Source of the DNA: Bowdeniella nasicola | Lineage (GTDB): Bacteria > Actinomycetota > Actinomycetes > Actinomycetales > Actinomycetaceae | Reading direction: 5' to 3' | Length of the DNA stretch: 58,551 bases | Assembly (NCBI RefSeq): GCF_001907295.1 | Contig: NZ_MQVR01000004.1 | Coordinates: 1-58,551 of the forward strand | Shown here: piece by piece, positions 31,381 to 52,387 of the stretch | How positions within the stretch are numbered: position 1 is the stretch's first letter | Layout of the letters: the number at the start of each line of letters is the position of its first letter | Made by a program: the position numbers and the translations under genes | Notes under the pieces: model-generated | Told to the model about the DNA's origin: nothing | What the model saw: the letters and a program-made list of their open reading frames with translations, nothing else | Databases searched by the model: none

Positions 31381-31382
31381 CG

Positions 31383-34482: not shown

Positions 34483-34619
34483 GCGCGCTACTCCTTAATT
34501 TCAGACAACGCCCCCTGGCACGGTCACTAGTCAGTGTAACCATCACACTCGCGCACTGCGGAAAAGCCGGGCCTGTGGCGGTAAGGTCGAGTCAGCAAAA
34601 TATCGCAGAAGGAGACGAT
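34483..34619. promoter_or_regulatory. Divergent promoter region between dehydrogenase and flippase genes
   Basis: This 137-bp region separates the minus-strand sugar-dehydrogenase operon from the plus-strand flippase-epimerase operon. It holds strong ribosome-binding sites at each end (AAGGAG on both strands). The centre (ACTAGTCAGTGTAACCATCA, about 34526-34545) is less GC-rich than its surroundings. No clear -35/-10 pair or operator was identified. Confidence 0.4.
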
Positions 34620-35921: not shown

Positions 35922-36983
35922 ATGAAGATCCTGTCAGTCGTCGGTGCCCGCCCCCAGTTTGTGAAGCTCGCTCCGATCGCGAAAGCGATGGCCGCTGCCG
36001 GCGTCGACCACGTGATTTGCCATACCGGCCAGCACTACGACCCGATGCTCTCGGATGTGTTCTTCGAGGATCTGGGGATCCCCGCTCCCGATGTGCACCT
36101 CGGTGTCGGATCGGCGAGCCACGGCAAGCAGACAGGTGGCATCCTCGCCGCAATGGATGACGTTCTCGCCGAGCACGAGCCCGACTGGGTCCTGGTCTAC
36201 GGTGATACCAACTCGACCGTCGCGGCAGCCCTCGCTGCGGTCAAACAACACATCAAGGTTGCCCACCTCGAGGCAGGCCTGCGCTCCTTCAACCGTCGCA
36301 TGCCCGAGGAACACAACCGGGTTCTAACCGATCATTGCGCTGACCTCCTGCTCGCTCCCACAACCGTCGCGGCCGAGCATCTGGAGCGGGAAGGCCTCGC
36401 CGAGCGCACGATCGTCGTCGGCGATGTGATGACCGACGTCCTCTATCAGGTCCGCGATGCCGTCGCCGATAAGCCTTCCCCGATCGGGGCTGAGCTCGGG
36501 CTCGAGGACGGCACATACTCCGTTGCAACCATCCACCGCGCGGAGAACACCGATGACCCACAGCGTCTTGCGGCCGTATTGGAATCTCTCGGGCGAGTCG
36601 ATCACCCGGTCGTGCTGCTCGCGCACCCGCGCCTGGTCGCGAAATGCGAGGCCCACGGCCTCGACATCAACCAAGGCAACCTCCGTTCACACGCTCCGCT
36701 TGCCTATCCCGACCTCGTCGCGTCGTGCTTGAAGGCTCGCGGTATCGTCACTGACTCTGGTGGTCTGCAGAAGGAAGCCTTCCTCCTGCGCGTACCCGCC
36801 ACGACTGTGCGGCCCGAAACCGAATGGGTTGAGACCGTTGAGCTCGGCTGGAACGTCTTGGTGGAGCCGGGCGATGCGCTCACGGCTGCCGCGACGCGCC
36901 CGCGCCCCGAAGACACCGACGAACAGCCCTACGGCGATGGCAACGCGGCTGAGCGCGTTGCCGCCGAGTTACTGCGGGCCTAA
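35922..36983 (+). CDS. UDP-N-acetylglucosamine 2-epimerase family enzyme (WbpI/WecB-type)
   Basis: This 353-residue GT-B-fold epimerase has KILSVVGARPQFVKLAPIAK, HTGQHYDPMLSDVFFEDLGI, YGDTNSTVAAALAA, HLEAGLRSFNRRMPEEHNR and the HRAENTDD loop. The phrases LGVGSASHGKQTGGIL and RSFNRRMPEE are closer to WbpI/WlbD, which epimerise UDP-GlcNAc(3NAc)A to the manno form, than to classical WecB with its RTGDLYSPWPEE-type segment. It follows the flippase by 9 bp. Whether it acts on UDP-GlcNAc or on the 3-acetamido uronic acid needs assay; the pathway genes at 45283-47972 favour the latter. Confidence 0.88.
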   Translation: MKILSVVGARPQFVKLAPIAKAMAAAGVDHVICHTGQHYDPMLSDVFFEDLGIPAPDVHLGVGSASHGKQTGGILAAMDDVLAEHEPDWVLVYGDTNSTVAAALAAVKQHIKVAHLEAGLRSFNRRMPEEHNRVLTDHCADLLLAPTTVAAEHLEREGLAERTIVVGDVMTDVLYQVRDAVADKPSPIGAELGLEDGTYSVATIHRAENTDDPQRLAAVLESLGRVDHPVVLLAHPRLVAKCEAHGLDINQGNLRSHAPLAYPDLVASCLKARGIVTDSGGLQKEAFLLRVPATTVRPETEWVETVELGWNVLVEPGDALTAAATRPRPEDTDEQPYGDGNAAERVAAELLRA

Positions 36984-36989
36984 CAGCCG

Positions 36990-38933
36990 CTACTTATTAC
37001 AAGCGTCGATCCGGTACAGGGTTGCGCTGCCCCCGGATGCAAGCTTGGTGAAGCCCTTTGACGTGTCGACGCCGTAGAGCCCCGGACGCAGTTCATCGGT
37101 GTAGCCACCGTTGTAGTAGCGCGCCTTGTCATCGTAGAAGTACTTGATCCCGTGGTCGTTCAGGATCTTACAGATGAATGGGTCAGAATCGATTAGGCGG
37201 AACCGCTGCAGTAAGAACGCGTCAAGCCCGGTCTGGGGATAGTTCGGGTAAGGCCACACCACTCGAATGTTGGAGAGCGGCTGGAGCAGCGCCGCACCTG
37301 CAGCGGGATCCCCGAGTACGTAGGCGTCCTTCGGCAGGATGTCCGCCGCAGACTTGATCATCTCGACTTCTTCAGGAGTGGCGAGATAGCGGACGTTATC
37401 CTCACTCGGATTAAAGGTCGTCTTGGTGTCGTGGGCGACACCCTTGAAGCCGTACGCCGTGACGGCAAGCATAATGACGGTGCAGACGCCAAGAGTTCTC
37501 GTGAGAGGAATCTCCGTGAGTTTCCACTGTCGTTTTGCGAGCCACGAGGCAGCTTCGTAGAACAGGATCCCTAGCATGGGAACAAGGAAAATCGCCGCCG
37601 CAAACTCTGCCCGGTTGGGATTCGAGTAGTACAGCGCGGTTAGGTGGCTAATGCCGTCGATGGGCAGGTAGCTTCCCAGGACAATGAGCCACTGGGAGAA
37701 CCACGCGATGACGAGCGCGTGGCGGCGCTTGCGCCAGGCGACGAAGATAGCAGCGAGCGTAAGGACGCAGACGGCCGCGTAGAACAAGACGGCGTAGGCT
37801 CCCCCGCCCGGAAGGAACATCGACGTCGAGAAAAAGACCTTAGCGATAATGTTGTCCCACTCAACTTTTGGGAAGCGAGCGAAGTAGTATCGCTGTGGTC
37901 CCGGAAGGATCATGAAAAGGTAGGCTGCGGCGACGAAAAACGCCGCAAGAGCGACGACGCCAACCCCCCTCGCATATCGCTTGTTCTGCAGATCCAGCCA
38001 GCCGCGCCACAGGAGGTAGGCGACAACGAGCGCAAACAGCGGAATCGACAGCGGTAGGAAAACCGAGGGATGGACCGCGAATACGCCGATGAGCGGTAGC
38101 AAGAAGATCCCGAACGTGAGCACTATTCGCCGGATGCTTGTCTTGCCGAGATTGTCGATGATCGCGCCAATCAACCCGGGGAGCGCAGCAAAGGCTAAAA
38201 CGAATGGCCACAATGTCGTCGCAAGCGCCAGTCGAGTCAGAGCGAGAGGCGCGAACGAAGCCGCAAGCAGGCCCCAAGGGTAAACCTTCTCTTCCTTCGC
38301 AGCGACCATTGCGAAAGCCGCCGCACCGAGGAGGAAGATCAGCGGAGTCACGACGAGCGACGCATTGGTCACGGCAAGGGTGTCCTGCGGCCCAACGGTG
38401 ACCAGCGAAAGCAGCGCATGCCAGGCGTTGGGATAATACCAAGGAAGCGGGTCAATTCCAGCCATCGTGGCATTCGACTCGAGCGGAGAAGCATTGCCTG
38501 TCCGCTCCATCAGCCACAGCTGGTTGTAGTGGTAGTTCGAATCCCCACCCTGGACCGGGTTTGACGCGTTGGAGGTCAAGACGATCGGTGCAATGGCGAT
38601 CAGCCATATCACTAGGGCAAAAGCCAGCATCTGCCAGTCATAACGATTCCGCCACAACGAGAGGTCTGGCCTCCACTTACGGGTAATAACCCCGTGAACC
38701 CCGAATGCTACAGCGGCAGCGACCACGGTGGCGATGATAAACGGGATGAGGCCCCACCGTATGGGCAGCTGAGGCTGTATCGCGGACAGAAGCGCCACGA
38801 TCCCAAAGGTCCAGGCAGGGGCCTGGGCAACCGCTAGCAGCGGGCGGGTCGCGGGTCGCCCCGCGAGGACGAGGAGCAGGCCCGGCAGGAAAGTAATGAG
38901 GACGATTGAGGAAATCTCAGGGAGATACCTCAT
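36990..38933 (-). CDS. DUF6541-like large membrane protein (copy 2)
   Basis: This ~647-residue protein has about 12-14 transmembrane helices and a soluble C-terminal region that contains YVLGDPAAGAALLQPLSN, then HGIKYFYDD and TLYRIDAC. These match the positions of the corresponding phrases in the copies at 29428 and 49139. Start is ATG 38933 or a TTG at 38948, and neither has a strong ribosome-binding site. It is the last gene of a minus-strand run of glycosyltransferases (43513 to 36990). It may be a membrane glycosyltransferase or a polymerase; no enzymatic role is established. Confidence 0.8.
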   Translation of the reverse strand: MRYLPEISSIVLITFLPGLLLVLAGRPATRPLLAVAQAPAWTFGIVALLSAIQPQLPIRWGLIPFIIATVVAAAVAFGVHGVITRKWRPDLSLWRNRYDWQMLAFALVIWLIAIAPIVLTSNASNPVQGGDSNYHYNQLWLMERTGNASPLESNATMAGIDPLPWYYPNAWHALLSLVTVGPQDTLAVTNASLVVTPLIFLLGAAAFAMVAAKEEKVYPWGLLAASFAPLALTRLALATTLWPFVLAFAALPGLIGAIIDNLGKTSIRRIVLTFGIFLLPLIGVFAVHPSVFLPLSIPLFALVVAYLLWRGWLDLQNKRYARGVGVVALAAFFVAAAYLFMILPGPQRYYFARFPKVEWDNIIAKVFFSTSMFLPGGGAYAVLFYAAVCVLTLAAIFVAWRKRRHALVIAWFSQWLIVLGSYLPIDGISHLTALYYSNPNRAEFAAAIFLVPMLGILFYEAASWLAKRQWKLTEIPLTRTLGVCTVIMLAVTAYGFKGVAHDTKTTFNPSEDNVRYLATPEEVEMIKSAADILPKDAYVLGDPAAGAALLQPLSNIRVVWPYPNYPQTGLDAFLLQRFRLIDSDPFICKILNDHGIKYFYDDKARYYNGGYTDELRPGLYGVDTSKGFTKLASGGSATLYRIDACNK

Positions 38934-38954
38934 CCACGAAAGCAGCAAAGTCCG

Positions 38955-41303
38955 TTATGACCTTTCTGATCGGGCGCATGACAGCACGAAAGACGCGACT
39001 GCCTCACCCATCGCCGACATCGATTTATGGTCCTGCACCCATTCCGCAAGGCGTTCTCGTTCCGCATCAGTGGCAGCGGAGCGTCTCACCTTGAGCATCG
39101 AGGAAGCGACCTTGTCCGCAGAGAACTCTGCGACTTCTCCAAGCTGATGGTTGGTGATATCGACCGTTGCAGGTCCCGCGCCAGCGTACACCACCGGGGT
39201 GCCGCTTGCGAGGGCCGTTAAGACCTTCGTGGGATAGGCAAAGTCGTACCCAAGCCCGGGGACGATAGACACGAGTGCGCCAATAGCCCCTCTTTGCCAC
39301 GCGGCGGCTTCTTCTGGCCCAACGGGCTCTAACACGACGACCGGGTTTGTAATTCCGGTCGCAGTTGCAAGAGATGCTGCTTGCTCCTCGATGCGGGGAA
39401 CCTGCGAGCCGCGAGCGAGGAAGACAATCTGGGTGTCCGGGTACTGATCAAGGACCTTGCTGAAAGCCTCAACGAAGATTTCGGCTCCTTGCCACTCCGA
39501 GGCTGTACCCGCGTAGATGAAATATGGATGCTTAACCCCGGCGACTGCTAGCTCCTCAGTCGTTAGCTGACGGCCGGAGGGGTTAAAGAGTTCGGTATCC
39601 GCACCGTTCGGCTGCACCAGAACGTTTCGTCCACCGAGCTCACGTACCCGCTTTGCGACGCCATCGGACACAGCGACGACGCCAGAAGCTCCTGAGATCG
39701 CGAAACTCTCCATCATCTTCACAGCGCGCACGACCACGTTGGGAGCTCCCGTATTTTCGGAAGCATCCGACCACACGTCCGCGGCGTACCAAACGTAAGG
39801 AAACCGCCTAAGGAGCGAAACGAGCCGCATGAAGGATCCGGTTGTCGGTGGAGGCTCAACGAGAGCCACGTCCGGTTTCGAACCAATGAGGGCCCGGAAT
39901 GACGCCTGCAAATCGAACGACATGTACGGCAAGTAGCCGCGCAAGTAGTCACTCTTGTCGCGTAGAACCGGGACCCGTACGATATTCGGCTCGAAGGAAA
40001 CCGTGGGCGCGGAGCTAGGCGGCTTCGATGTGATGACCCGGACGTCGGCCCCTTGGGCCGTCAAGGCTTTCTCCACGGCTTCGAGCCTGAATGATGCTGC
40101 TGAAGCTTCCGGCATGTGAATCCGAGAAACGACCAACGCTCGCTTCTTGCGCGAGTATGCATCGATCACTTTCCGATATGCGACTAGGTGGCGGTTAATG
40201 AACACGCTGGCCGACGATCTTCCCCATGCGCGGTGCCGAATCTCTCCGTTAGAGAATCCTTGGCCGTTGGCATATGCGCTGACCATCTCTTTCATGGCGC
40301 GAGCGAAAGCGCTGGTGTCGTCGATGGGTACGACACACCCCATGCCGTCAGTCGCCATGTGTCGACCACCTGAGGTTGCCGTGGCAATACAGGGGATGCC
40401 CATGCTCTGCGCTTCAGCATAGACTGTTCCACCGGCCTCTCGAGCCGAGAACAGGATGAGACAGTCGCCCCGATTCATTTCTCCGGGCATTTGGTCGCGG
40501 CCGACACGACCAGCGAACTCAATGGCGTCGCGGCATCTTAGATCGGCTGCAAAGGACCGCAGTTCTCGAACTCTTTCCGGATCTCCACCGATGACGAGGA
40601 AACGAGTGTGGGGAAACTCAGCGTAGACCGCATCGAAAGCTAGGAGGCTCTCTTCTACCCGTTTGTTTCTATCGAGATGCGAAACGTGCATGAAGGTGAA
40701 GGTGTCCGTGTCCGGGACATGAGTGGGCTGCTCAAAGAAGCGGCCCGGAACCGGCAGACTCATCACGCCAAAGGTCGAGCAACCGTAATACTCGGACAGC
40801 TTCTCAGCGAAGTCGGGCGACACTGCGTAATGAAAACTGGCTCCACACACCGCGTCCCGGATCATCCGATAGCGATAGCTCTTCGGATTCCGTGTAAGCG
40901 ATGACGGACGGTGCTCCGTAATGCCGTACGGGACCCCCCAACGCCGCGAAAGGGCCTGAGCAACGAGAATGCCAGGGAAAACCGAATGCGAGTGAATGAC
41001 ATCCGGAACCCCGAACTCTTCCTCGTACACTTTGGCGATCCGCGCGCTGAACAGTTCGATCAGTTGTCTATCACCCGGAACGATCCCCAGTGGAACCGTG
41101 GGAAAATCCTGATGGATTACTTGCTCAGCTCGGTTTAGCCGTAACCCAGTTTCCCGCTTTTTCCACGCTGTCGTGGGGTTAAGCGCGATGACGCCCACTT
41201 CGATGCCGGAACTTCGCAGCATTGAAACCTGTTCCGCGAAGAAGCTTCCATTAAAGGGCTGGCTCTCGGTTGGATACCAGGATGGTGTCCACAGGACATG
41301 CAT
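38955..41303 (-). CDS. Tandem GT4-GT4 glycosyltransferase fusion
   Basis: This 782-residue protein is two complete GT-B glycosyltransferases in one chain. The first (about 1-385) starts HVLWTPSWYPTESQPFNGSF and carries MHVSHLDRNKRVEESLLAF and EAGGTVYAEAQSMGIPCIA. The second (about 388-782) restarts with ALVVSRIHMPEASAASFRLE and carries FIYAGTASEWQGAEIFVEAF and YPTKVLTALASGTPVVYAG. Single-domain relatives are about 380 residues, so this is a genuine fusion. It could add two successive sugars. Its ATG overlaps the upstream stop (TGATG). Confidence 0.87.
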   Translation of the reverse strand: MHVLWTPSWYPTESQPFNGSFFAEQVSMLRSSGIEVGVIALNPTTAWKKRETGLRLNRAEQVIHQDFPTVPLGIVPGDRQLIELFSARIAKVYEEEFGVPDVIHSHSVFPGILVAQALSRRWGVPYGITEHRPSSLTRNPKSYRYRMIRDAVCGASFHYAVSPDFAEKLSEYYGCSTFGVMSLPVPGRFFEQPTHVPDTDTFTFMHVSHLDRNKRVEESLLAFDAVYAEFPHTRFLVIGGDPERVRELRSFAADLRCRDAIEFAGRVGRDQMPGEMNRGDCLILFSAREAGGTVYAEAQSMGIPCIATATSGGRHMATDGMGCVVPIDDTSAFARAMKEMVSAYANGQGFSNGEIRHRAWGRSSASVFINRHLVAYRKVIDAYSRKKRALVVSRIHMPEASAASFRLEAVEKALTAQGADVRVITSKPPSSAPTVSFEPNIVRVPVLRDKSDYLRGYLPYMSFDLQASFRALIGSKPDVALVEPPPTTGSFMRLVSLLRRFPYVWYAADVWSDASENTGAPNVVVRAVKMMESFAISGASGVVAVSDGVAKRVRELGGRNVLVQPNGADTELFNPSGRQLTTEELAVAGVKHPYFIYAGTASEWQGAEIFVEAFSKVLDQYPDTQIVFLARGSQVPRIEEQAASLATATGITNPVVVLEPVGPEEAAAWQRGAIGALVSIVPGLGYDFAYPTKVLTALASGTPVVYAGAGPATVDITNHQLGEVAEFSADKVASSMLKVRRSAATDAERERLAEWVQDHKSMSAMGEAVASFVLSCARSERS

Positions 41304-42400
41304 CAGCGTCCTCCGCTCTCACCGGTCAATGATGCCGCGATCTGTCTCGCACGGGCCGGCCAACTGTGGTTATGCCTTACTGCCTCGCACCGGCTCGTTA
41401 CCTCTGCAAGTTCTGCCGGATTGTCCAGCAACCGGACGAGCACGTCCTTGATCTCGGATACGGAGTTATCGGTCGTCCAACCGATCCCCAACTCGTCGAT
41501 ACGCTTACCGGTCAGCGATCCCTTTGTGCCGATGATGGGCTTGCCACGGCCGATGTACTCATAGAACTTGAACGGCGAGGCGAACTCGCGATACTCGAGT
41601 GGCTCGAATGCAACGGAGCAGATGTTCGCGTCCTCGTACAGTTTGTTCAAGCCCTCGCCGGACTCGTGGACGATACGAATGCCATTCGAACCGGCCTCAG
41701 GATATTCGTGAGCAACCGCCTGCCAACGCGACGCCTCAGTGCAAATGGTGAGCCGCGCACCGTCGATCTCGCTGACGGCACGTACCAGGTTGTGCATCCG
41801 ATAGTGGTCGCCTACACCACCGACATAGAAAATCGACACGCCCTCCCTTGGCCCCGAGGACTCTACGATCTGACCACCGGGAGGTAGCGCTTCATGGCGC
41901 GGCTTAGTTACCTCAGGTAGGTACTCACCCATCTCCATGGACGGGAGGAAGATGACGTCACAATACTTCTGATACGTGAAAAGCTCAGCTCGGTACAGCA
42001 ACTTCATGACAGCTGCCAGTGGTTGGCCGACCCGTTGGTCGTACTCCTCGAATTTCCAGTAGATATCGCGGTAAAAGATGCCCGAAGGTATGCCACGAGA
42101 CTTGGCGAACCGGAAAATCTCCAGATCGAGGAATGGATGTGGAGGCAAGTGCTTACGTTCCGTCACCGACGGCGGGATGGTCGCGTTCTCTGAGTACATG
42201 AAGTCGATCTTTTGACCAGCTTCAACGCGCTTCCGGAGCGCCGCAAACCGACGCTTTCGCTCGACGGCATACCCGGTAATATCTAGGATTTCGAAGCCTA
42301 GATCTTCGAATGCCTGCAGCATCTTGATCGGTCGAATCGCGGAAGCTGAGACCGAGTCGGGGTTCAGCGGATACGGGGCATGGTAGATCATCGTCGGCAT
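41303..42400 (-). CDS. GT-B fold glycosyltransferase, probably GT4-like
   Basis: This 365-residue protein has an N-terminal MIYHAPYPLNPDSVSASAIR, then EILDITGYAVERKRRFAALR, and a C-terminal GT-B donor region with REFASPFKFYEYIGRGKPIIG. Start ATG 42400 is chosen because GGAG lies 8 bases upstream; 42412 is an upstream alternative. It is 18 bp downstream of the GT4 gene at 42419 and overlaps the next gene at TGATG. The family is a diverged GT4-like one found in actinobacterial surface-glycan loci. Donor and acceptor unknown. Confidence 0.8.
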   Translation of the reverse strand: MPTMIYHAPYPLNPDSVSASAIRPIKMLQAFEDLGFEILDITGYAVERKRRFAALRKRVEAGQKIDFMYSENATIPPSVTERKHLPPHPFLDLEIFRFAKSRGIPSGIFYRDIYWKFEEYDQRVGQPLAAVMKLLYRAELFTYQKYCDVIFLPSMEMGEYLPEVTKPRHEALPPGGQIVESSGPREGVSIFYVGGVGDHYRMHNLVRAVSEIDGARLTICTEASRWQAVAHEYPEAGSNGIRIVHESGEGLNKLYEDANICSVAFEPLEYREFASPFKFYEYIGRGKPIIGTKGSLTGKRIDELGIGWTTDNSVSEIKDVLVRLLDNPAELAEVTSRCEAVRHNHSWPARARQIAASLTGESGGR

Positions 42401-42418
42401 TGTGGTCTCCATTCGCTG

Positions 42419-43513
42419 TTAGCACTGACGCGCGAGCTTTTCGTACAGATCCGTGTAGGCCTGCGCGATTGAGGTCGATTCGAAGCGGTCCCCGACCGTT
42501 GCCGCGATCTCATCAGCGGTGAGTGCCGCCGTTCGCGCGTTCAATTCGAGAATCGCCTCAGCATACGCTTCAGGATTCTGCTGATCGACCGTGATTCCTA
42601 CCGAACGATCAATGTACTCACCCTGCCCCCCGTTGGCGCCGACGACGAGCGGGCGCCCGTTGACAATCGATTCAGCGGCAGCGACGAAGAAGTTATCGGC
42701 GCGAGTCGGGCCAAAGAACATGTCGGCCTTAGCGATATATTCGCGCACTTCCTGCGCGCTCTTCGTGCCCGGGAAATCTGCCTTCACACCTAGCTCGGAC
42801 GCGAGCTCGATCGCCGCTTCCCGCAAGGGGCCATCGCCAAGCCACGTTAGCGACGCGTCGTGTCCGCGATCCTTGAGAACCTTGAGCGTGCGTACGGCAA
42901 GGAGTGGGTCCTTGCGCTCGACGAGCGCGCCGGTCGAGATGAGGTTCAATGTCTTGCCCTGCTCGGGGCGTTCCGCGAGCGTGGCCGGTGATGGAACCTG
43001 GCACGGGATGACGACGACCTCGCGGCGCCCACGAACCTCGCGAATCGGGGCCGCGAGGAATTCACATACCGCCACGACGACATGGGGCAGCTTTTCCATC
43101 TGCAGCAGCATCGGCAGCATCGCGCGCGCCGGAGCAGGCAGCGTCTCCGGCGAGGTAATCGCCGACCAGTGTTCGGTGTGGACCCACGGCATCGTCGGGC
43201 GAGAGAATACGAGCGGCTCGATTGCACTAAGCGCCTGGGTGTGGACGATGTCGGCCCCGTGGAGCAGCGCAGTCATCTTGCTTGCAGCACGCAGGATGCT
43301 GATGGGGTTGTTCGTATCCATCGGGATGCGAATGACCTGGAGCCCTTCATGCCAGACGCGGCGAGTGCCATCGTCCTCGTGAGACGGCACCAAATGGATG
43401 ATGCGAATGTCATGGCCCGCTGCCTGGAACGCCGCCGCATCCTTGACGACAAATGCCCCGGAAGATGGGTTCTTCGCCGTCGGGAACCACGGTGTCACTA
43501 TCGCAACGCGCAT
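42419..43513 (-). CDS. GT4 family glycosyltransferase
   Basis: This 364-residue GT-B enzyme starts RVAIVTPWFPTAKNPSSGAF and contains NLISTGALVERKDPLLAVRTL, LGDGPLREAAIELASELG and the donor-site region FFGPTRADNFFVAAAESIVNG. It is the first gene of the minus-strand run 43513-36990. The 104-bp gap to the divergent asparagine-synthase-like gene should hold two promoters. It is typical of retaining GT4 enzymes in capsule and cell-wall polysaccharide loci; the sugar is unknown. Confidence 0.88.
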   Translation of the reverse strand: MRVAIVTPWFPTAKNPSSGAFVVKDAAAFQAAGHDIRIIHLVPSHEDDGTRRVWHEGLQVIRIPMDTNNPISILRAASKMTALLHGADIVHTQALSAIEPLVFSRPTMPWVHTEHWSAITSPETLPAPARAMLPMLLQMEKLPHVVVAVCEFLAAPIREVRGRREVVVIPCQVPSPATLAERPEQGKTLNLISTGALVERKDPLLAVRTLKVLKDRGHDASLTWLGDGPLREAAIELASELGVKADFPGTKSAQEVREYIAKADMFFGPTRADNFFVAAAESIVNGRPLVVGANGGQGEYIDRSVGITVDQQNPEAYAEAILELNARTAALTADEIAATVGDRFESTSIAQAYTDLYEKLARQC

Positions 43514-43617
43514 CGATCATCCTTCGAGTAGTATGCCCTGTGCAGGCGAGTCGAGATCCCTACCAGCCTACCGTGAGAGCGCACCGGGAATCACTGCGCC
43601 ACAGTCAAGGAGAAGCG

Positions 43618-45213
43618 ATGACACCGACCTTCGAGCTTTCGGATAAATCCTGGTCCACCACTCATCATCAGGGACTTAACATCCACTCTCGAGGTCGTAT
43701 AACCGACTCCCTCGAGCAGCTGGATCTGCATGATTCTGCCGCTGTCGTCGACGCCGTCCGATATCACGGCGGCGCTTTGATCGTCGCCACCAATGAGACG
43801 GTCACCATCTACCAGGACCTGATTCGCTCCTTCCCCGTGCTCTTCACCGCGTCGACGCCTGTCATCATCGGTGACGACCCTCGCGCGATCGCACGGCACC
43901 GGCCGCTATCAATCAGCCCAGCATCGGCGCGCGAGTTCGAAGGCATGGGTTTCGTCTCAGGGGAAGACACCCTATATGAGGGCCTAAAGCAGACGATGCA
44001 GGGCACGACAACGACGATCGACCTAGCTACCGGCACCCACACCGTCGACGACTGGGGACGCTGGTTTTTTGAAACCGATCGCATCACCGACCCGGACGAG
44101 CTTGGCACCGTTTTCGATAAGGCTCTCGATCAGGCAATGAACCGTCTGGTGGCAGAGGCGAAGGACTCGAACATCCTCATCCCGCTATCTGGCGGCCTCG
44201 ATTCCCGCCTCCTCATCTCGTGGCTGGTCGCGCACAACATCAAGAACGTCGTGACATTTACCTACGGCGTGGCAGGGTCACGCGAGAGCGAAATCTCCCG
44301 CCAGATCGCAACCGCCGCACATTACCCGTGGGAGTTCGTCGAATACGATCCCCAAAAACTGCTCGAGCGTTGGCACGCGCCGGAAACTGAAGAGTTCTTG
44401 CGCTTCTGCTACGGCGGCGTCTCACTCCCCCACATCCAGGATTGGTACGCCCTCGAGGACCTCCTCGCCCGCGGGATCGCGCACGAAGGCGACATCGTCG
44501 TGCCCGGGCATACGATCGTCGGCAACATGCACGACGAGGACACCCTTGATGAGGCTCCCCTGCCACTCGGCCGGATCGCTCAGCTCATCGCGGGACACCA
44601 CTATGACATTCAGGGTCCACGCCTCACTCCTGAGGGCGACCCCGCCTACGTGGCAAAGCTGCGCGAGTTCATCGCCAGCGGTGGCTACGACGGATCTGCC
44701 GAGTCGGTCCAGGACGCGCTCGAGGCCTATAACGTGCGGGAACGCCAAGCCAAGTACATCAACAACTCGATGCGCGCCTACGAGTACTACGGGCTTCGTT
44801 GGTCCCTTCCGATGATCGATGCGCCCGTATGGGACGCGTGGCGTAAGGCCAGTCCGGAACTATCCCTCACGCGCGACTGGTACCGCGATTACGTGACTGC
44901 CCGATTCGAAGCCGCGCTCGGCGACAGTGCCGAGATCGCTCCGTACTACCAGCCGATCGCCGTCGAGGATCATCGCCGTGATCAGATCAAGAAGATCCTC
45001 GCCGCTACCGGGCTCCTGGCACTCGCCAACCGCGCGTTCTCTACCTATTCATCGCTTCATGATGGCACCGCGCTCGACGTTTACATTACGGACCGTTCCA
45101 GGCCCGTTACCGCGTTTGACCTCATGCGCGGCCGCAAGCTCATTGGCTTCTGGACATCGGCATTCCTTGCCGATGCCTGGAGCAAGGGCGCGCGCGTCGT
45201 TCAGGTGGATTAG
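43618..45213 (+). CDS. Asparagine-synthase-like protein without glutaminase cysteine
   Basis: This 531-residue protein has an asparagine-synthetase C-terminal (PP-loop ATPase) domain with the signature SGGLDS at 191-196 and downstream helices to the end. The N-terminal ~180 residues look like a remnant of the class II glutaminase domain (TIYQDLIRSFPVLFTAS recalls the conserved region), but there is no catalytic Cys2, since the chain starts MTPTFELSD. The ATG follows AAGGAG. In Pseudomonas O-antigen loci, WbpS-type members amidate uronic acids. Here the neighbours make an amino-uronic acid, so amidation using free ammonia is a reasonable inference. Another ATP-dependent ligase role is possible. 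Confidence 0.82.
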   Translation: MTPTFELSDKSWSTTHHQGLNIHSRGRITDSLEQLDLHDSAAVVDAVRYHGGALIVATNETVTIYQDLIRSFPVLFTASTPVIIGDDPRAIARHRPLSISPASAREFEGMGFVSGEDTLYEGLKQTMQGTTTTIDLATGTHTVDDWGRWFFETDRITDPDELGTVFDKALDQAMNRLVAEAKDSNILIPLSGGLDSRLLISWLVAHNIKNVVTFTYGVAGSRESEISRQIATAAHYPWEFVEYDPQKLLERWHAPETEEFLRFCYGGVSLPHIQDWYALEDLLARGIAHEGDIVVPGHTIVGNMHDEDTLDEAPLPLGRIAQLIAGHHYDIQGPRLTPEGDPAYVAKLREFIASGGYDGSAESVQDALEAYNVRERQAKYINNSMRAYEYYGLRWSLPMIDAPVWDAWRKASPELSLTRDWYRDYVTARFEAALGDSAEIAPYYQPIAVEDHRRDQIKKILAATGLLALANRAFSTYSSLHDGTALDVYITDRSRPVTAFDLMRGRKLIGFWTSAFLADAWSKGARVVQVD

Positions 45214-45282: not shown

Positions 45283-46269
45283 CTAGAGCCGGACGGACTC
45301 GCCGTCGGCCGCGGACTTCAGGATCGCTTCGACGACCTCGAGCGTGCGAACGCCCTCAGCCATCGAGACGTGATCGTTGCGCTTGCCAAGAATGGCGTCA
45401 CGGAAGTTCTCTTGCTCCACTCGCAACGGTTCGCGCTTTTCAAGGGCGAACCGGGTTACCTCACCTTCGGAGACCCCCCGAAAGTTCGCCACCTGCGTCC
45501 ACTCAATCGGGATGATGCCGTTGCGGTACAACGTTAGATCGCCGAGTGCGGTATCCGCGACGAGGGCTCCCTTCTCGCCGGTGACGATCGTCGTGCGGTC
45601 CTTGAACGGCGACAGCCAGTTCACCAGGTGGTTGACGAGCACGCCGTTAGCCATGCGTCCCGAGACGGTCACCATGTCCTCGTGTTCGCGGCCCGACTTG
45701 TAGGCGGTCTGGGCGAAGACGACTTCGTAGGTCGCGCCCGCGACCCAGGCAGCCAGGTCAACATCGTGCGTCGCGAGGTCCTTCACCACACCCACATCGG
45801 AGATGCGGGCCGGGAACGGAGACTGGCGGCGGGTGACAATCTGGTAGATCTGGCCGAGTTCGCCGTCCTGGATGCGCTTACGCATCTCCAGCAGAGCCGG
45901 GTTGCAGCGCTCGACGTAGCCGACAGCACCGACGAGGCCGGCCTTCTCGAAGGCTTCGGCCACGCGGCGGCCCGACTCGACGTCGGCAGCGATCGGCTTT
46001 TCGACCATCGTGTGAACGCCGGCTTCCGCGAGCGCCAGGGCGGCTTCCTCGTGGTAGACCGTCGGGACAGCAACCATCGCGGCATCGAGGCCCTGGTCGA
46101 TCATCGCGTGGACGTCGGGCAGGACCTCAAGATCCTTTGCAACGCCGAACTTATCGCCGCCGGGATCCGCGATCGCAACGAGGTCCATGCCCTCGGTCTC
46201 GCGGATCACGCGGGCGTGGTGGCGGCCCATCGAGCCGACACCGAGCAGGCCTACGCGCAGGTTAGCCAT
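45283..46269 (-). CDS. Gfo/Idh/MocA oxidoreductase (WbpB/WlbA-like)
   Basis: This 328-residue NAD(P)-dependent dehydrogenase has the Rossmann start RVGLLGVGSMGRHHARVI and the catalytic Lys motif MVEKPIA, with the C-terminal domain containing LATHDVDLAAWVAG. In Pseudomonas and Bordetella, WbpB/WlbA oxidises C3 of UDP-GlcNAcA. It is downstream of, and 3 bp from, a DegT aminotransferase and an N-acetyltransferase. That order is the same as in known UDP-2,3-diacetamido-uronic acid loci. The family is broad, so specificity rests on these neighbours. Confidence 0.86.
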   Translation of the reverse strand: MANLRVGLLGVGSMGRHHARVIRETEGMDLVAIADPGGDKFGVAKDLEVLPDVHAMIDQGLDAAMVAVPTVYHEEAALALAEAGVHTMVEKPIAADVESGRRVAEAFEKAGLVGAVGYVERCNPALLEMRKRIQDGELGQIYQIVTRRQSPFPARISDVGVVKDLATHDVDLAAWVAGATYEVVFAQTAYKSGREHEDMVTVSGRMANGVLVNHLVNWLSPFKDRTTIVTGEKGALVADTALGDLTLYRNGIIPIEWTQVANFRGVSEGEVTRFALEKREPLRVEQENFRDAILGKRNDHVSMAEGVRTLEVVEAILKSAADGESVRL

Positions 46270-46272
46270 GGA

Positions 46273-47376
46273 CTACGCACCCGCCTTCGCGACAGCGTTG
46301 ACAGCCTCAACGATGCGGTCGAGGTGCTCGTCGGTCAGCGACGGGTGCACCGGCAGCGAGATCACGGACTTGGCCGCTTCCTCGGTGACGGGCAGGTCGA
46401 GGCCCGGAGCGAAGTGCGTGAGCGATTCGAGGCGGTGGTTCGGGATCGGGTAGTAGACGCCCGAGCCGACCTGGTATTCGTCCTTCAGGGCAGTCACGAA
46501 GGCATCGCGGTCCTGGCCATCGACGCGGATCGTGTACTGGTGGTAGACGTGCACGGCGCCGGCGGCGACCGGCGGGACGATGACGCCCTCGAGGTTTTCG
46601 TTCAAGAATGCGGCGTTCGACTGACGCTTTTCGGTCCACGCGTCGACCTTGGTCAGCTGCACGCGGCCGATCGAGGCGTGAATGTCGGTCATGCGGTTGT
46701 TCAGGCCCACGAGTTCGTTTGCGTACTGACGCTCCATGCCCTGGTTGCGCAGCAGGCGCACGCGGCGGGCGATTTCCTCATCGGCGCACGACACCATGCC
46801 GCCTTCGCCGGAGGTCATGTTTTTCGTCGGGTATAGCGAGAACATCGCGAAGGTGCCGAACGTGCCGACCTTCTCGCCGTTGAGCGAGGCGTTGTGCGCC
46901 TGGGCGGCGTCCTCGAACAGCATGAGACCGTGCTTGTCGGCGATCTCCTTCAGGGCCGGCATATTGGCCGGGTGGCCGTACAGGTGCACCGGCATGATGG
47001 CCTTGGTCTTGTCGGTGATGGCGGCTTCGACGCTCTTCGGGTCGAGGCAGAAGTAGTCGAGCTCGATGTCTGCGAAGACCGGGGTCGCGCCCGTGAGGGC
47101 CACGGAGTTACCGGTCGCGGCGAACGTGAAGGAAGGAACGATGACCTCATCGCCGGGGCCGATGCCCGCGGCCAGCAGGCCGAGGTGCAGGCCCGAGGTT
47201 CCGGAGTTCACGGCGACGCATTCACGGCCCGAGACCATGTGCCCGGAGAATTCCTTTTCGAAGGCGGCCACTTGCGGTCCCTGCGCGACCATGCCGGAGC
47301 GTAGGACCTCATCGACAGCGGCGCGTTCTTCGTCGCCGATAATCGGTTTGGCGGGCGGGATGAATTCCTTGCTCAT
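46273..47376 (-). CDS. DegT/DnrJ/EryC1/StrS aminotransferase (WbpE/WlbC-like)
   Basis: This 367-residue PLP-dependent sugar aminotransferase has FVPPAKPIIGDEE-like N-terminal homology, NSGTSGLHLGLLAAGIGPGD, FEDAAQAHNASLNG and the PLP lysine Lys185 in SLYPTKNMTSGEGG. In the WbpE step it converts UDP-3-keto-GlcNAcA to the 3-amino sugar with glutamate as donor. The ATG (47376) overlaps the upstream acetyltransferase stop (ATGA), so the frame open to 47607 is not used. It is 3 bp from the oxidoreductase. Confidence 0.9.
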   Translation of the reverse strand: MSKEFIPPAKPIIGDEERAAVDEVLRSGMVAQGPQVAAFEKEFSGHMVSGRECVAVNSGTSGLHLGLLAAGIGPGDEVIVPSFTFAATGNSVALTGATPVFADIELDYFCLDPKSVEAAITDKTKAIMPVHLYGHPANMPALKEIADKHGLMLFEDAAQAHNASLNGEKVGTFGTFAMFSLYPTKNMTSGEGGMVSCADEEIARRVRLLRNQGMERQYANELVGLNNRMTDIHASIGRVQLTKVDAWTEKRQSNAAFLNENLEGVIVPPVAAGAVHVYHQYTIRVDGQDRDAFVTALKDEYQVGSGVYYPIPNHRLESLTHFAPGLDLPVTEEAAKSVISLPVHPSLTDEHLDRIVEAVNAVAKAGA

Positions 47377-47972
47377 TTGCTCTTCTCTTCTTTCAACTTG
47401 CCATTGACGAGCTCGTAGCGGACACCGGATTTCGGACAGGTGAAAATGCCAGGCGCGGCCTCTTCCAGTTTGACGCCTGACTTGGAAACCCAACCGATCT
47501 GACGCGCCGGAACGCCTGCGACCAGTGCGAAGTCGGGCACATCCTTGACGACGACGGCGCCGGCGGCCACGGTTGCCCAGGCCCCGATCGTCACGGGTGC
47601 GACACACACGGCGCGAGCACCGATCGCGGCGCCCTCCTTGATGGTGACGCCCACGGGCTCCCAGTCTTCGCCGGACTTCAGCGAACCGTCGGGGTTGATC
47701 GCACGGGGATTGTGATCATTGGTGAGGACGACCGCGGGGCCAATAAAGACACCATCGGCCAGTTCTGCGGGCTCGTAAACGAGCGCGTAGTTCTGGACCT
47801 TGCAGTTATCCCCCATCTGAACACCGGTGCCGATATAGGCGCCGCGTCCCACGATGCAGTTCTTCCCCATCGTCACCCCCTCTCGCACTTGTGCGAGGTG
47901 CCACACAGAGGTGCCGTCGCCGATGACGGCTTCCTCGGAGACATCTGCGGAATCGACGATTCTGCTGGCCAT
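47373..47972 (-). CDS. Left-handed beta-helix N-acetyltransferase (WbpD/WlbB-like)
   Basis: This 199-residue hexapeptide-repeat acyltransferase has repeated imperfect hexads (for example CIVGRGAYIGTGVQMGDNCK) and TNDHNPRAINPDGSL with the conserved catalytic-type His, as in WbpD/WlbB. These acetylate the 3-amino group of UDP-GlcNAc3NA using acetyl-CoA. Start is ATG 47972 after GAGGAGGATAC; the frame open to 48029 is not needed. It is the first gene of the operon acetyltransferase-aminotransferase-oxidoreductase. The C-terminal KLKEEKSK tail is charged. The two steps fixed by its partners make this assignment strong. Confidence 0.88.
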   Translation of the reverse strand: MASRIVDSADVSEEAVIGDGTSVWHLAQVREGVTMGKNCIVGRGAYIGTGVQMGDNCKVQNYALVYEPAELADGVFIGPAVVLTNDHNPRAINPDGSLKSGEDWEPVGVTIKEGAAIGARAVCVAPVTIGAWATVAAGAVVVKDVPDFALVAGVPARQIGWVSKSGVKLEEAAPGIFTCPKSGVRYELVNGKLKEEKSK

Positions 47973-48037
47973 GTATCCTCCTCGGGCAAGCGGCCGGGTT
48001 GCGGACATTACCGCTAACTCCTGTAACAATACCTTCT

Positions 48038-48744: not shown

Positions 48745-49203
48745 ATGATTCATTCCCAGCTCGTGCTCGCGGAAGCCTCGCTCACGTCCTTTGCCACCAC
48801 GAACCGGTTTTGGATCCAGCTGCTGCTGATTCTTGGCGTCGTCATCGCGGGTATCATCCTGACCCGGTCCTCGGCCGGAGCCCGCCACCAGGCGATCCGT
48901 CGAATCTTCATGGCCCTGTTCGCGGCCGTCGCGGTGTATTTCATCATCTTCCCGTCCGCCGCCTCGCAGATCGCCCGTATAGTCGGGGTTGGTCGTGGCG
49001 CGGACCTACTGCTCTATGCCCTCGTTGTTGCGTTCTTCAGCTTCGTGGCCACCTCGTTCAAGCGGGTGGCTGCCATGGAACGTCGAATTACCGAACTATC
49101 GCGTCAGCTCGCGATTTCTCGAGCCCCGGGACCGGAGGCTATTCATCAGCAGCCGCCGACGCGACCGAACGAGGACATCGATCCGGAAGCTCCCACACGC
49201 TGA
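48745..49203 (+). CDS. DUF2304 domain-containing membrane protein
   Basis: This 152-residue protein has three transmembrane helices (about residues 24-42, 57-75 and 86-104) with FFSFVATSFKRVAAMERRITELSRQLAI after the third, the DUF2304 pattern. It ends in a hydrophilic Pro-rich tail. The partner is the GT2 enzyme immediately upstream. Its last 65 bp overlap, in antisense, the end of the convergent DUF6541-like gene. Function is unknown; a membrane scaffold for the GT2 is inferred. Confidence 0.85.
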   Translation: MIHSQLVLAEASLTSFATTNRFWIQLLLILGVVIAGIILTRSSAGARHQAIRRIFMALFAAVAVYFIIFPSAASQIARIVGVGRGADLLLYALVVAFFSFVATSFKRVAAMERRITELSRQLAISRAPGPEAIHQQPPTRPNEDIDPEAPTR

Positions 49204-51052
49204 CGCTGCCTGCCTTCGTCACGCGGGTCATGCCCGACGTGTCGACGCCATACATGCCCGAAGAATCCATACTCACTTTGGCGCCCTGCACCTTAGTATC
49301 CTCGTCAAGGTAGAGATACCGGATCCCCTGCTTGCGCAGTTCGGGGCACAGTTCTCCTTGCCGCTCAGCCAGCCCCTTAATCGCGGACCAGACGGTCGGC
49401 AGCTGGGCAGCGAGCGTGAGCTGCCGGACCCGAGAATCGACACCCGAATAGCCGTAGGCGAACGCCGCTCCGTTTGCAGGATCCCCAATAATCGATCCTT
49501 CATGCGGCAGGCCGTGCTTCTTCAGCCACCGCAGGACTGCGAGGTCATCCTCGTCCGCCATCGTGCCGTAGGCGATCGAGCCGGGCTGATAGGCCGCGGC
49601 AACCAACTGGGTGCGCGGCACGATACGGAATCCGGCGGTCGCCACCGCGACGATCACGAACACTGCAGCGACTCGGCGCCAGCTGGCTACCCCGAGGATG
49701 ACGGCGATCGCGAGCGTCACGAGCAGCGCCATGACCATGGTGATGACGGGGGCGATCCGGGCCGCCTGCGAATACCAGGGCGTCGCAAGGGTCCGCGGCC
49801 ACACATTATCGACGCGCGCGACCGCTCGGATCACGAGTGGCAACACGAGCGCGCCGGTGACACCAAATGCGCCCCAGCGCGGCAGTCGCCGGAAGACGAA
49901 GACCAGCCCGGCGATCGTTCCGATCGCGAGGAGCGCTCCCCCGAGGTACCAGTCATTGGCGCGCCACAGCGAGGTGTAATCGATGAGGGCAGCAGCGAAT
50001 TCTCCGAAGGGGTTCGCTCCGGCACCGCGTTCGAAGTCTCGCACGCTCGCGGACAGTTTCCAGTAGACGAGGCCGACACCGATCGCCGCGAGGACGCCCA
50101 CGACTACGCCCGCTCGCACGAGCATCGCGCGCTCGGAGTTCCACGCCTTAGGGACGACGTGGATCAGCCAGGCGAGGGTGATCGGTCCGAGAACCGCGGC
50201 GAGCGAGGCGACCGCGATCGGGTGGGCAAGTGCCATTCCGAACGTCGCGACTGCGGCGGCACACCGGATCGAAAGCCTCCGGTCGGTGAGCCCAGCGATA
50301 ACGCCGGGCAAGATGACTGCGGCCGCTGCGTACGGAAGGGCAGACAGGAGCGGAAAGAGTACCGCGGGGACGGTGACGAAGGCAGCCGAGACCGGCAGGA
50401 TCCACGCCGTGAGCATGCCCGGGCGGATGAGCAGTGTCTCGCCAAGGCGGGATTCGATCTGCCAGGCCAGGAGCAGCATGCCGCTTGCCCACACCGCAAC
50501 GCCGTACACGTAGATCGAGGCGTTTAGGACCTGCACACCCTCGCCATAGGCAAGCGAAATCAGGCCGTTAAACGCGCTCGGATAGTAGCGGGGGCTGCCG
50601 CCCTGCTGATAGAGCGGGGCTAGTGACCACAGCGAGCTCGCGGTCTCGTTATCGCGGATCGCTCGGATCGACGACAAATGGAAGACACCATCCCATTGCT
50701 GCAGCAGCGTCGAAAGCGAGCCCATACCCCATATGAGCGGCAGGGCGAGCAGAACGACGCCGAGGGCGATCGGTGCGTAAGTCCAGCGCTTGAGAGCAAC
50801 AAAGTGCGGAGTCGCAGAGACGACGAGTCGCGCAAGGGCCGCGAGCGCCAGGACGATCACGAGGCCTACCGCCGCGGACACCAGGTTGAAGGGGAGCCCG
50901 ACGAGATACGTGACCGTCGCAATGGCCTCAGACAACAGGAGGCTGACTCCCGGGGCCAGTCCCAGCGCCCACGGCCACGGGATCCGAAGGATCCTCAGCG
51001 TGAGAGCGCCGGGAAGGAAGGCGACCGCGGCGACGGTCAGGACAGTAAGCAC
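49139..51052 (-). CDS. DUF6541-like large membrane protein (copy 3)
   Basis: This 637-residue protein starts at GTG (51052) and has about 12-14 transmembrane helices, starting VLTVAAVAFLPGALTLRILR. The C-terminal soluble region contains SIIGDPANGAAFAYG, QGIRYLYLDED and VSVWELPDRC, matching positions in the copies at 29428 and 36990. It lies at the far edge of the polysaccharide locus next to the LCP genes. Its 3' end overlaps DUF2304 by 65 bp. A role as membrane glycosyltransferase or polymerase is possible but unproven. Confidence 0.8.
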   Translation of the reverse strand: MLTVLTVAAVAFLPGALTLRILRIPWPWALGLAPGVSLLLSEAIATVTYLVGLPFNLVSAAVGLVIVLALAALARLVVSATPHFVALKRWTYAPIALGVVLLALPLIWGMGSLSTLLQQWDGVFHLSSIRAIRDNETASSLWSLAPLYQQGGSPRYYPSAFNGLISLAYGEGVQVLNASIYVYGVAVWASGMLLLAWQIESRLGETLLIRPGMLTAWILPVSAAFVTVPAVLFPLLSALPYAAAAVILPGVIAGLTDRRLSIRCAAAVATFGMALAHPIAVASLAAVLGPITLAWLIHVVPKAWNSERAMLVRAGVVVGVLAAIGVGLVYWKLSASVRDFERGAGANPFGEFAAALIDYTSLWRANDWYLGGALLAIGTIAGLVFVFRRLPRWGAFGVTGALVLPLVIRAVARVDNVWPRTLATPWYSQAARIAPVITMVMALLVTLAIAVILGVASWRRVAAVFVIVAVATAGFRIVPRTQLVAAAYQPGSIAYGTMADEDDLAVLRWLKKHGLPHEGSIIGDPANGAAFAYGYSGVDSRVRQLTLAAQLPTVWSAIKGLAERQGELCPELRKQGIRYLYLDEDTKVQGAKVSMDSSGMYGVDTSGMTRVTKAGSVSVWELPDRCPRSVASAAADE

Positions 51053-51145: not shown

Positions 51146-52387
51146 GTGCAGAAAAATCGTCATGCCCAGATACGGAAAGCTCCTCCGCGCTACTCGCGGA
51201 CCCCGCGAAAAGGCCGCCTGCGGTGGCATGTAGCGCTCGCATCCGTCCTGGGTATCGTGCTGTTTTTCGGCACCTCTTTCGGGCTCGCCTGGTGGCGTCT
51301 GCAGGGCAATGTCGCGGTCACCAGTATCGATAAACTTATTGATAACCGCCCGTCTGCGAGCACCTCGCCGCCCCCGCTCGACCCGAACGCGGGTCACCCC
51401 ATTAACCTGCTCGTCATCGGCTCCGACGTCCGCCACGGCGACTTCGCCGATAAGTCGATCGAAGGCATGCGCGGCGATGTCACGATGCTCATCCACGTCT
51501 CCGCAAAACGCGATCGTGTCGATGTCGTCTCTATCCCCCGCGACCTACGCATCAACATCCCGTCCTGCAACCTGCACGACGGCACGAAAACCGGGGCCGC
51601 GAAGGACCGCAAATTCAACGAAGCGTTCGCTCGCGGTGGCGCCAAGGGCAACGTGTCCGAGGCTGCCGCTTGCACGATCAAGACCGTCGAATCCCTCACC
51701 GGGGTCTATATCGATGACTACGTCGTCGTCGATTTCCAGGGCTTCCAGACGATGGTTGATGCCCTCGGCGGCGTCCCGCTGTACTTCCCGAAGGACGTCG
51801 ATGACCGCCGCGCAGACCTGCACATCAAAGCCGGCTGCCGCCTGCTCGACGGACATGATGCCCTCGCCGCGGCGCGCTCGCGCTACGCACAGGGCGATGG
51901 CTCTGACCTCAGCCGCATCGAACGCCAGCAGCGCCTCGTCGGCGCGATCATCCGCGAAGCATTGAAGCTGAACCTGCTCACGAACCTGCCGTCGCTTTAC
52001 TCCTTCCTGGATGCGGCGACGAAGTCCCTGTCGGCCGGCCCGCAGATCGGATCGCTCACGACGATGGCCGGCCTCGCCTACTCGATTCGCAATATCGATC
52101 CGGCTTCGGTCACGTTCCTTACGACTCCCGTGCGCTGGGCAGGCGACCAGATCTACATCGGTGCCGATGCGCAGCGCGTCTGGGACAACATCAAGGCCGA
52201 TCGGCCGTTGAACTACGACCCGGATGCGGAAACCCCGTCCGAGTCCCCGAGCGAATCGGCGTCCCCGTCCCCGACAGCGACGAAGGCGACCCCGAGCCCG
52301 TCCGCGAGCACCGAGCCGGGCAAGACGGCCGAACAGGACGACGAGTTCCCGACGTGTACCCGAGAGAATGCGCAACCGAATGAGTGA
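51146..52387 (+). CDS. LytR-CpsA-Psr (LCP) family cell-wall glycopolymer ligase (1)
   Basis: This 413-residue protein has a basic cytoplasmic tail, one transmembrane helix (about residues 28-50) and an extracytoplasmic LCP domain (about 85-250). The conserved residues are in IGSDVRHGDFADKS, VVSIPRDLRI and KFNEAFARGG. The last ~50 residues are Ser/Pro/Glu-rich and disordered. LCP enzymes transfer lipid-linked glycopolymers to peptidoglycan or arabinogalactan. GTG start at 51146 without a Shine-Dalgarno site. It overlaps the second LCP gene by 8 bp. Confidence 0.92.
   Translation: MQKNRHAQIRKAPPRYSRTPRKGRLRWHVALASVLGIVLFFGTSFGLAWWRLQGNVAVTSIDKLIDNRPSASTSPPPLDPNAGHPINLLVIGSDVRHGDFADKSIEGMRGDVTMLIHVSAKRDRVDVVSIPRDLRINIPSCNLHDGTKTGAAKDRKFNEAFARGGAKGNVSEAAACTIKTVESLTGVYIDDYVVVDFQGFQTMVDALGGVPLYFPKDVDDRRADLHIKAGCRLLDGHDALAAARSRYAQGDGSDLSRIERQQRLVGAIIREALKLNLLTNLPSLYSFLDAATKSLSAGPQIGSLTTMAGLAYSIRNIDPASVTFLTTPVRWAGDQIYIGADAQRVWDNIKADRPLNYDPDAETPSESPSESASPSPTATKATPSPSASTEPGKTAEQDDEFPTCTRENAQPNE

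Follow-up and report, generated by a model that had tools for sequence, protein, structure and literature searches.

The window (the whole stretch of DNA analysed, 58,551 nucleotides) contains a polysaccharide locus in which a gene for a PP-loop protein of the asparagine-synthase superfamily stands among genes for sugar-nucleotide and assembly functions. The relevant features are given below; residue counts refer to an alignment of 78 sequences, the window's own protein and 77 homologues (loci L121 and L133, truncated or split, were dropped).

33184–34482, minus strand: WbpA-like UDP-sugar 6-dehydrogenase (TIGR03026 above cut-off)
34575–35912, plus strand: flippase-like Polysacc_synt protein
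35922–36983, plus strand: WbpI-like UDP-GlcNAc 2-epimerase (TIGR00236 above cut-off)
36990–43513, minus strand: assembly block of a DUF6541 protein, a double GT4 protein, the glycosyltransferase-like GT_41303 (under the Pfam cut-off) and a GT4 protein
43618–45213, plus strand: putative PP-loop amide synthetase (asparagine-synthase superfamily) without a working glutaminase domain, 531 residues (ORF, Pfam, AlphaFold2, profile and structure matches)
43618–44082, plus strand: degenerate class II glutaminase-like (Ntn) N-domain, residues 1–155, nucleophile strands missing (predicted fold; D67 in 78/78, R70 in 75/78, S71 in 76/78)
44188–44208, plus strand: PP-loop SGGLDSR, residues 191–197 (S191, G192, G193, D195, S196 and R197 in 78/78)
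44503–44514, plus strand: PGHT motif, residues 296–299, at the position of AsnB SGEG (His298 in 78/78)
44743–44769, plus strand: RQAKYINNS motif, residues 376–384 (R376 and I381 in 78/78, K379 in 76/78)
45283–46269, minus strand: WbpB-like Gfo/Idh/MocA sugar dehydrogenase (Pfam family only)
46273–47607, minus strand: WbpE-like DegT aminotransferase, start probably further in (Pfam family only)
47373–48029, minus strand: WbpD-like hexapeptide acetyltransferase (Pfam family only)
51146–53642, plus strand: two LytR_cpsA_psr genes, 51146–52387 and 52224–53642 (second start probably further in)

The UDP-ManNAc3NAcA route is thus represented in the window by homologues of each of its five Wbp enzymes, the WbpA and WbpI types scoring above NCBIfam cut-offs and WbpB, WbpE and WbpD being assigned by Pfam family and by the company they keep. 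The first-pass annotation had proposed that this locus makes a uronic acid, and the diamino-uronic-acid pathway beside the PP-loop gene bears this out. The scanned neighbours are polysaccharide genes and an MgtE-type transporter gene that lies inside the polysaccharide region (28094–29431, plus strand). A lasso-peptide or beta-lactam cluster is not supported, no gene of either kind being found among the scanned neighbours.

Several other features of the region were observed. The double GT4 protein is a single ORF of 782 residues (38955–41303, minus strand) with two GT4 halves (two stretches each, four Pfam families), and it is matched by two separate genes in several other loci. The region also contains three large DUF6541 proteins (29428–31395, 36990–38948 and 49139–51052, minus strand), of which the one at 36990, the DUF6541 gene that diverges along with the PP-loop gene in close pairs of loci, could be a polymerase or a transferase.

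Sequence signatures and predicted fold

The 531-residue protein begins with MTPTFELSDKSW (MTPTF). Its reading frame stays open upstream, with in-frame starts back to 43453, and AAGGAGA stands upstream of the ATG at 43618. The first-pass annotation had reported an intact PP-loop and a missing nucleophile, Cys2, and had named beforehand a missed upstream start with Cys2 as the finding to look for against its reading. The PP-loop SGGLDSR is indeed intact, and none of the six in-frame starts from 43453 up to and including 43618 is followed by Cys. An upstream start with Cys2 is therefore ruled out in the 43453–43618 extension.

Pfam Asn_synthase (PF00733) matches residues 167–251 with 28 bits (cut-off 21), which together with the SGGxDS PP-loop places the protein in the Asn_synthase superfamily. 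A QueC Pfam match falls below its cut-off, no glutaminase family is detected by Pfam at E values up to 0.1, and PHROGs gave weak matches only, to phrog_16728 (function unknown) and phrog_1550 (QueC-like). Membership of the AsnB family (TIGR01536) was rejected, given a score of 27.7 bits against a cut-off of 267.1 and the lack of a nucleophile Cys after the start Met. The WbpS-type family (TIGR03108) was rejected at 20.7 bits against 816.9. The WbpS-type relationship suggested by the first pass therefore does not hold, and uronamide formation is not transferable from WbpS. WbpS, WbqG and PGN_1234 (TIGR03108) do resemble the protein in genomic setting, an asparagine-synthase-like gene beside Wbp or other amino-uronic-acid genes, and amino-uronic-acid genes lie in the same locus here; it differs from this group in scoring far below the cut-off and in lacking the glutaminase active site.

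An AlphaFold2 model built with the 77 homologues reached a pLDDT of 95.0 and a pTM of 0.93. When the whole model was searched with Foldseek, beta-lactam synthetase came first (E 4e-14), followed by human asparagine synthetase, CarA, E. coli AsnB and TsnB9, with TM-scores of 0.44–0.56 over the top five. The corresponding VIA-align Z-scores were close to tied (18.2–19.6): CarA 19.6 (3.7 Å, 396 residues), beta-lactam synthetase 19.5 (3.6 Å, 388), TsnB9 19.5 (3.9 Å, 443), E. coli AsnB 19.2 (3.6 Å, 376) and human asparagine synthetase 18.2–19.0. The whole-model alignments begin at residue 31–44 of these chains.

Residues 1–155 folded alone gave a pLDDT of 95.2 and a pTM of 0.89. VIA-align ranked TsnB9 first for this domain (Z 10.4; 3.0 Å, 149 residues), with beta-lactam synthetase at 10.2 (3.6 Å, 133, from its residue 15), CarA at 9.0 (3.9 Å, 150, from its residue 31), human asparagine synthetase at 8.1–8.3, E. 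coli AsnB at 7.3 (3.4 Å, 122) and the class II glutaminases GlmS and PurF at 6.8–6.9, from their residue 65–66 on. Foldseek ranked beta-lactam synthetase first for the N-domain alone. A low Z-score alone means little, and the match list to rank 38 consists of asparagine-synthetase relatives and glutaminase-type domains, which points to a fold of the glutaminase type that has lost its first strands and the nucleophile with them. The first-pass annotation had regarded the N-domain as a remnant, and the structure prediction agrees: the modelled domain resembles a class II glutaminase but lacks the nucleophile-bearing strands.

Profile comparisons favour beta-lactam synthetase. The N-domain profile gave 9.6e-9 for this enzyme and 0.029 for TsnB9, and profile A2 gave 3.4e-11 for beta-lactam synthetase, 8.1e-9 for CarA, 2.7e-7 for human asparagine synthetase and 4.5e-5 for E. 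coli AsnB. Beta-lactam synthetase and CarA have an N-domain without the catalytic Cys. The model is likewise predicted to combine a two-domain AsnB-like fold with a glutaminase-type domain lacking Cys, and these two enzymes (1jgt and 1q15; Z 19.2–19.6) are its closest relatives by profile; the protein differs from both in that the first part of the N-domain is missing. A fold match to another ligase group with matching neighbours had also been named in advance as counting against the first-pass reading. The fold match was found, with beta-lactam synthetase best by profile and Foldseek; the matching neighbours were not, the identified neighbours being polysaccharide genes.

Alignment with AsnB-like proteins by hhalign in global mode gave a probability of 99.8% at 13% identity. 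It pairs residue 1 with AsnB residue 68 (Met as 1), so that the first 67 residues of E. coli AsnB, a member of the same superfamily, are unmatched, and NGE and SGEGSDE are replaced. PGH298T falls on AsnB SGE348G, which puts His298 at the position of Glu348, a residue with a role in AsnB; this placement comes via AsnB Glu348 only, the beta-lactam synthetase alignments not covering the PGHT region. Beta-lactam and carbapenam synthetases have a Tyr-Glu dyad, with Tyr where AsnB has Glu348 and the present protein His. For AsnB Lys449 no clear equivalent is seen in the C-terminal part, where the alignment is unsure.

Conservation, co-occurrence and divergence

Homologues were found in 18 of 99 relatives, own genome counted (E 0.001; one, G066, is weak), and the gene is present in 76 of the 213 genomes of the host's taxonomic family (at 1e-10). 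A 40-sequence set, the window's own and 39 homologues from the best-scoring fetched loci, was found by whole-protein search; loci L016–L018 and L020 (truncated, split or weak) were left out. SGGxDSR, PGHT, H272, Q274, D275, R376, Q377 and Y380–I381 are invariant in 40/40 of this set, in which ORF choice was partly guided by such motifs. None of its printed N-termini has Cys after the chosen start, and L019 yielded no start.

A scan of named genomes gave 469 related places, of which 79 loci were kept. Members include Bowdeniella nasicola (55% identity), Actinomyces, Schaalia, Leucobacter, Arthrobacter and others, and more distant ones occur in Pseudoalteromonas, Carboxylicivirga, methanogens and several uncultured bacteria. 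The scan used patterns with SGGxDSR and PGHT, and conservation of these motifs in the wider loci is therefore partly built in. In the 78-row alignment Asp67, His298, Arg376, Ile381 and Pro398 are present in all rows and Thr299 in 67/78.

An in-frame start followed by Cys, 188–288 codons ahead of SGG, was found in 4/80 loci of the present type and in 21/23 AsnB-like loci, and GxGxDE in 2/80 versus 20/23, one ORF being taken per locus. The comparison is biased, because E. coli AsnB was the query for the 23 AsnB-like loci and most of them matched it through the glutaminase domain. Loss of the Cys and shortening of the N-terminal domain are a family trait, not gene damage.

The association of the gene with the uronic-acid (Wbp) pathway is strong. 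A match to the window's wbpB (at 1e-40) occurs in 146/213 genomes of the family and in 76/76 of those that carry the gene (Fisher p 5e-17, uncorrected for kinship); the gene without wbpB was seen in none of the 76. Carriers have wbpI (at 1e-90) in 66/76 cases and the control gene glf in 42/76 (p 0.03, uncorrected for kinship). Within the largest genus, wbpB is present in 31/31 carriers and missing from 6/18 non-carriers (p 0.001). It lies on the same contig as the gene in 68/76 genomes and within 20 kb in 64/76.

In the 79 wider loci, examined over stretches of at most 9 kb on each side and in some cases on short contigs, at least one of the five Wbp genes was found in 64 and at least three in 41 (58 and 37, respectively, at an identity of at least 40%). 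None of the five was found in the examined stretch of 15 loci (21 at an identity of at least 40%); these 15 comprise 8 of the 11 methanogens, 4 Actinomycetaceae and 3 others. The homologue of Pseudoalteromonas flavipulchra is followed, on its own strand, by members of all five Wbp enzyme families: WbpI-type epimerase, TviB-type dehydrogenase (above cut-off), Gfo/Idh/MocA, hexapeptide and DegT genes. Both identified neighbours lie on the strand opposite to the homologue in 21/79 loci, and in 22 loci none was identified within 400 bases. No amine-supplying neighbour was recognised in a search of neighbour clusters, a poor test because these were filled by long antisense ORFs of high-GC loci. Two clusters of that search look like glycosyltransferases, by inspection only.

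Across 58 loci including the window, the median pairwise identity of the protein is 32.8%, compared with 27.3% for DUF6541, 39.6% for GT_41303, 42.0% for the flippase and 67–77% for WbpA, B, E, D and I, each gene other than the PP-loop gene being found in 26–54 of the loci. We then considered close pairs, defined by WbpA or WbpB at an identity of at least 90% (39 pairs from 27 loci). The protein falls below 60% identity in 18/39 of these, and the Wbp genes in none of the pairs scored. Where the protein is divergent, GT_41303 is below 60% in 17/18 pairs (2/20 of the others), DUF6541 in 14/15 (4/18) and the flippase in 4/6 (0/15). For example, WE8B-23 and CCUG 34288, both labelled Actinomyces oris and kept as separate species representatives, share 97% identity in WbpA and 42% in the PP-loop protein (local alignment). 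Over all pairs, rank correlation with the identity of the protein (DUF6541 0.52, flippase 0.38, GT_41303 0.29, WbpA 0.49, WbpI 0.35) does not separate the assembly genes from WbpA and WbpI, and the co-divergence thus rests on close pairs, which are not independent; since they share loci, we claim no p-value. Between close relatives, then, the protein diverges with a glycosyltransferase and DUF6541 and not with the Wbp genes, a pattern compatible with an enzyme that recognises the glycan after assembly, or with one whose product the transferases recognise.

Proposed reaction and alternatives

Tentatively, we take the protein to be an amide synthetase of the AMP-forming type that joins an external amine to a 2,3-diacetamido uronic acid at its C6 carboxylate, with substrate and donor as we infer them. 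The PP-loop would adenylate the C6 carboxylate of a 2,3-diacetamido-2,3-dideoxy uronic acid, ManNAc3NAcA or its gluco form, made by the locus's own Wbp genes. The acyl-AMP would then be attacked by the external amine, for which an amino acid or another small amine is the likeliest candidate, in preference to ammonia derived from glutamine; the product would be an N-substituted uronamide. His298 may act where AsnB has Glu348, and the N-domain would be a class II glutaminase remnant retained for a structural role or to bind substrate. The reaction is probably carried out on an assembled or lipid-linked glycan.

The absent nucleophile, the degenerate N-domain and the adjacent diamino-uronic-acid pathway support the earlier suggestion of a donor other than the protein's own glutaminase. 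Given that the protein has no glutaminase, this donor would be free ammonia or an amine. An amine is favoured by the nearest profile relatives, the His in place of Glu348, the low conservation and the ManNAc3NAcA-L-alanine of Pseudoalteromonas, none of which is decisive; an N-substituted amide is at least as likely a product as the plain uronamide. Beta-lactam synthetase and CarA both work with amines, and CarA forms an intramolecular amide. The same type of product is reported for beta-lactam synthetase (PMC6594144). In Pseudoalteromonas, 2,3-diacetamido-mannuronoyl-L-alanine has been reported (PMC3210612), and it is linked to the Wbp-cluster homologue at the level of the genus, not the strain. 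Against the amine reading, the profile lead of beta-lactam synthetase is modest, the structural Z-scores are near a tie, the Foldseek TM-scores reach only 0.44–0.56, and TsnB9, not beta-lactam synthetase, leads the N-domain ranking by VIA-align. To our knowledge, TsnB9 is not an amine-using synthetase of the kind proposed here. In the open-licence literature searched, we found no polymer structure or assay tied to this gene, and no link between the published polysaccharide of P. flavipulchra and its locus.

The same uronic acid could instead receive free ammonia, giving the plain uronamide that WbpS is held to make, an outcome that we consider rather unlikely. NAD synthetase and QueC are ammonia-only PP-loop enzymes without a glutaminase, and loss of the glutaminase is therefore no proof of an amine donor. 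The AsnB-like PesC is described as able to use ammonia instead of glutamine (PMC13060819). Uronamides formed from 2,3-diamino uronic acids are also known: the linking sugar of P. gingivalis is reported to be one, with WbpS required (PMC7468200), and P. rubra is reported to have a GlcN3NA amide (PMC3210612). The wbpB co-occurrence (76/76) suits ammonia as donor as well; the His at the Glu348 position in 78/78 sequences and the best profile matches, beta-lactam synthetase and CarA, argue against it. It is less probable still that the carboxylic acid activated by the enzyme is a different one, in the glycan or in a substituent, the Wbp sugar being a mere neighbour in the polymer. The 8/11 methanogen loci with none of the five Wbp genes in the examined stretch would suit such a role, as would close pairs in which the protein changes with assembly genes and not with sugar-nucleotide genes, but the host family has 0/76 carriers without wbpB.

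WbpG in P. aeruginosa O5 is reportedly a PP-loop enzyme that forms an acetamidino group on an N-acetyl of its sugar. Such a modification of the 2- or 3-N-acetyl, in place of a C6 amide, would share PP-loop chemistry and the same Wbp sugar, but it is very unlikely given the predicted two-domain AsnB/beta-lactam synthetase fold, the absence of an N-acetyl-sugar amidotransferase model among the six NCBIfam matches (E up to 0.1) and the lack of a HisH/HisF-like partner among the scanned neighbours. We give least credence of all to a housekeeping role as an ammonia-dependent asparagine synthetase, or to an inactive pseudoenzyme. The protein is the only AsnB-superfamily member detected in its own genome: a search with E. 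coli AsnB gives none at 1e-20, and the other two PF00733 matches are ORFs that read, by inspection, as GMP synthase and NAD synthetase. However, the PP-loop is invariant in 78/78, SGEGSDE is replaced, and the gene occurs in just 76/213 genomes, always with wbpB.

Amide formation on glycan acids has precedents. In H. pullorum, WbpS is described as an asparagine-synthase-like gene needed for a uronamide (PMC6025236), and a locus for a uronamide-bearing glycan in Bordetella contains BB0880, a putative asparagine synthase (PMC12407052). The C-terminal domain of Campylobacter jejuni Cj1438 is reported to form an amide between a uronic acid and an amine in an ATP-dependent reaction, after transfer of the sugar to the chain, and to produce ADP (PMC11800397); it is therefore not an AMP-forming PP-loop enzyme, unlike the one proposed. 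In an actinomycete, Streptomyces griseus, the utr (teichuronic-acid) locus is described as making a ManNAc3NAcA polymer via a Wbp-like pathway; the carboxyl carbon of this polymer shifts with pH, suggesting that the acid is free, no asparagine-synthase-like protein is among the Utr proteins described, and the string 'asparagine synth' is absent from the main text (PMC13274773).

A wider and more doubtful proposal is that these uncharacterised, widespread AMP-forming ligases attach amino acids or other amines to wall polymers of the teichuronic-acid type at the carboxyl of the uronic acid. Close relatives, for instance in Actinomyces, would have exchanged donor or acceptor specificity along with their glycosyltransferase and DUF6541 genes, and the ligases would thereby help to set wall-polymer serotype. 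Fold and chemistry of this kind are already known; the searches of open-licence PMC papers yielded none that deals with the sub-family, the His motif or the occurrence of such genes in Wbp loci. If correct, the amine reading would add a further route to amides of polysaccharide acid groups besides WbpS-type amidotransferases and the ADP-forming Cj1438, with a His motif not described in the literature found. It would also show how many Actinomycetaceae tune wall-polymer charge, aid the prediction of wall structure from genomes and supply a ligase for glycan chemistry.

Some individual loci deserve mention. Carboxylicivirga (L126:8872–12160) has two tandem family members, both with PGHT and SGGxDSR, and in Methanoculleus a PGA_cap (capsule synthesis) gene (L128:7489–8652) directly adjoins the homologue. 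Three homologues are in two pieces, as if broken (G031:C1:537804–539155, G131:C1:2264080–2265482 and G125:C8:2293–3698), and the one in G031 lies 170 kb away from wbpB.
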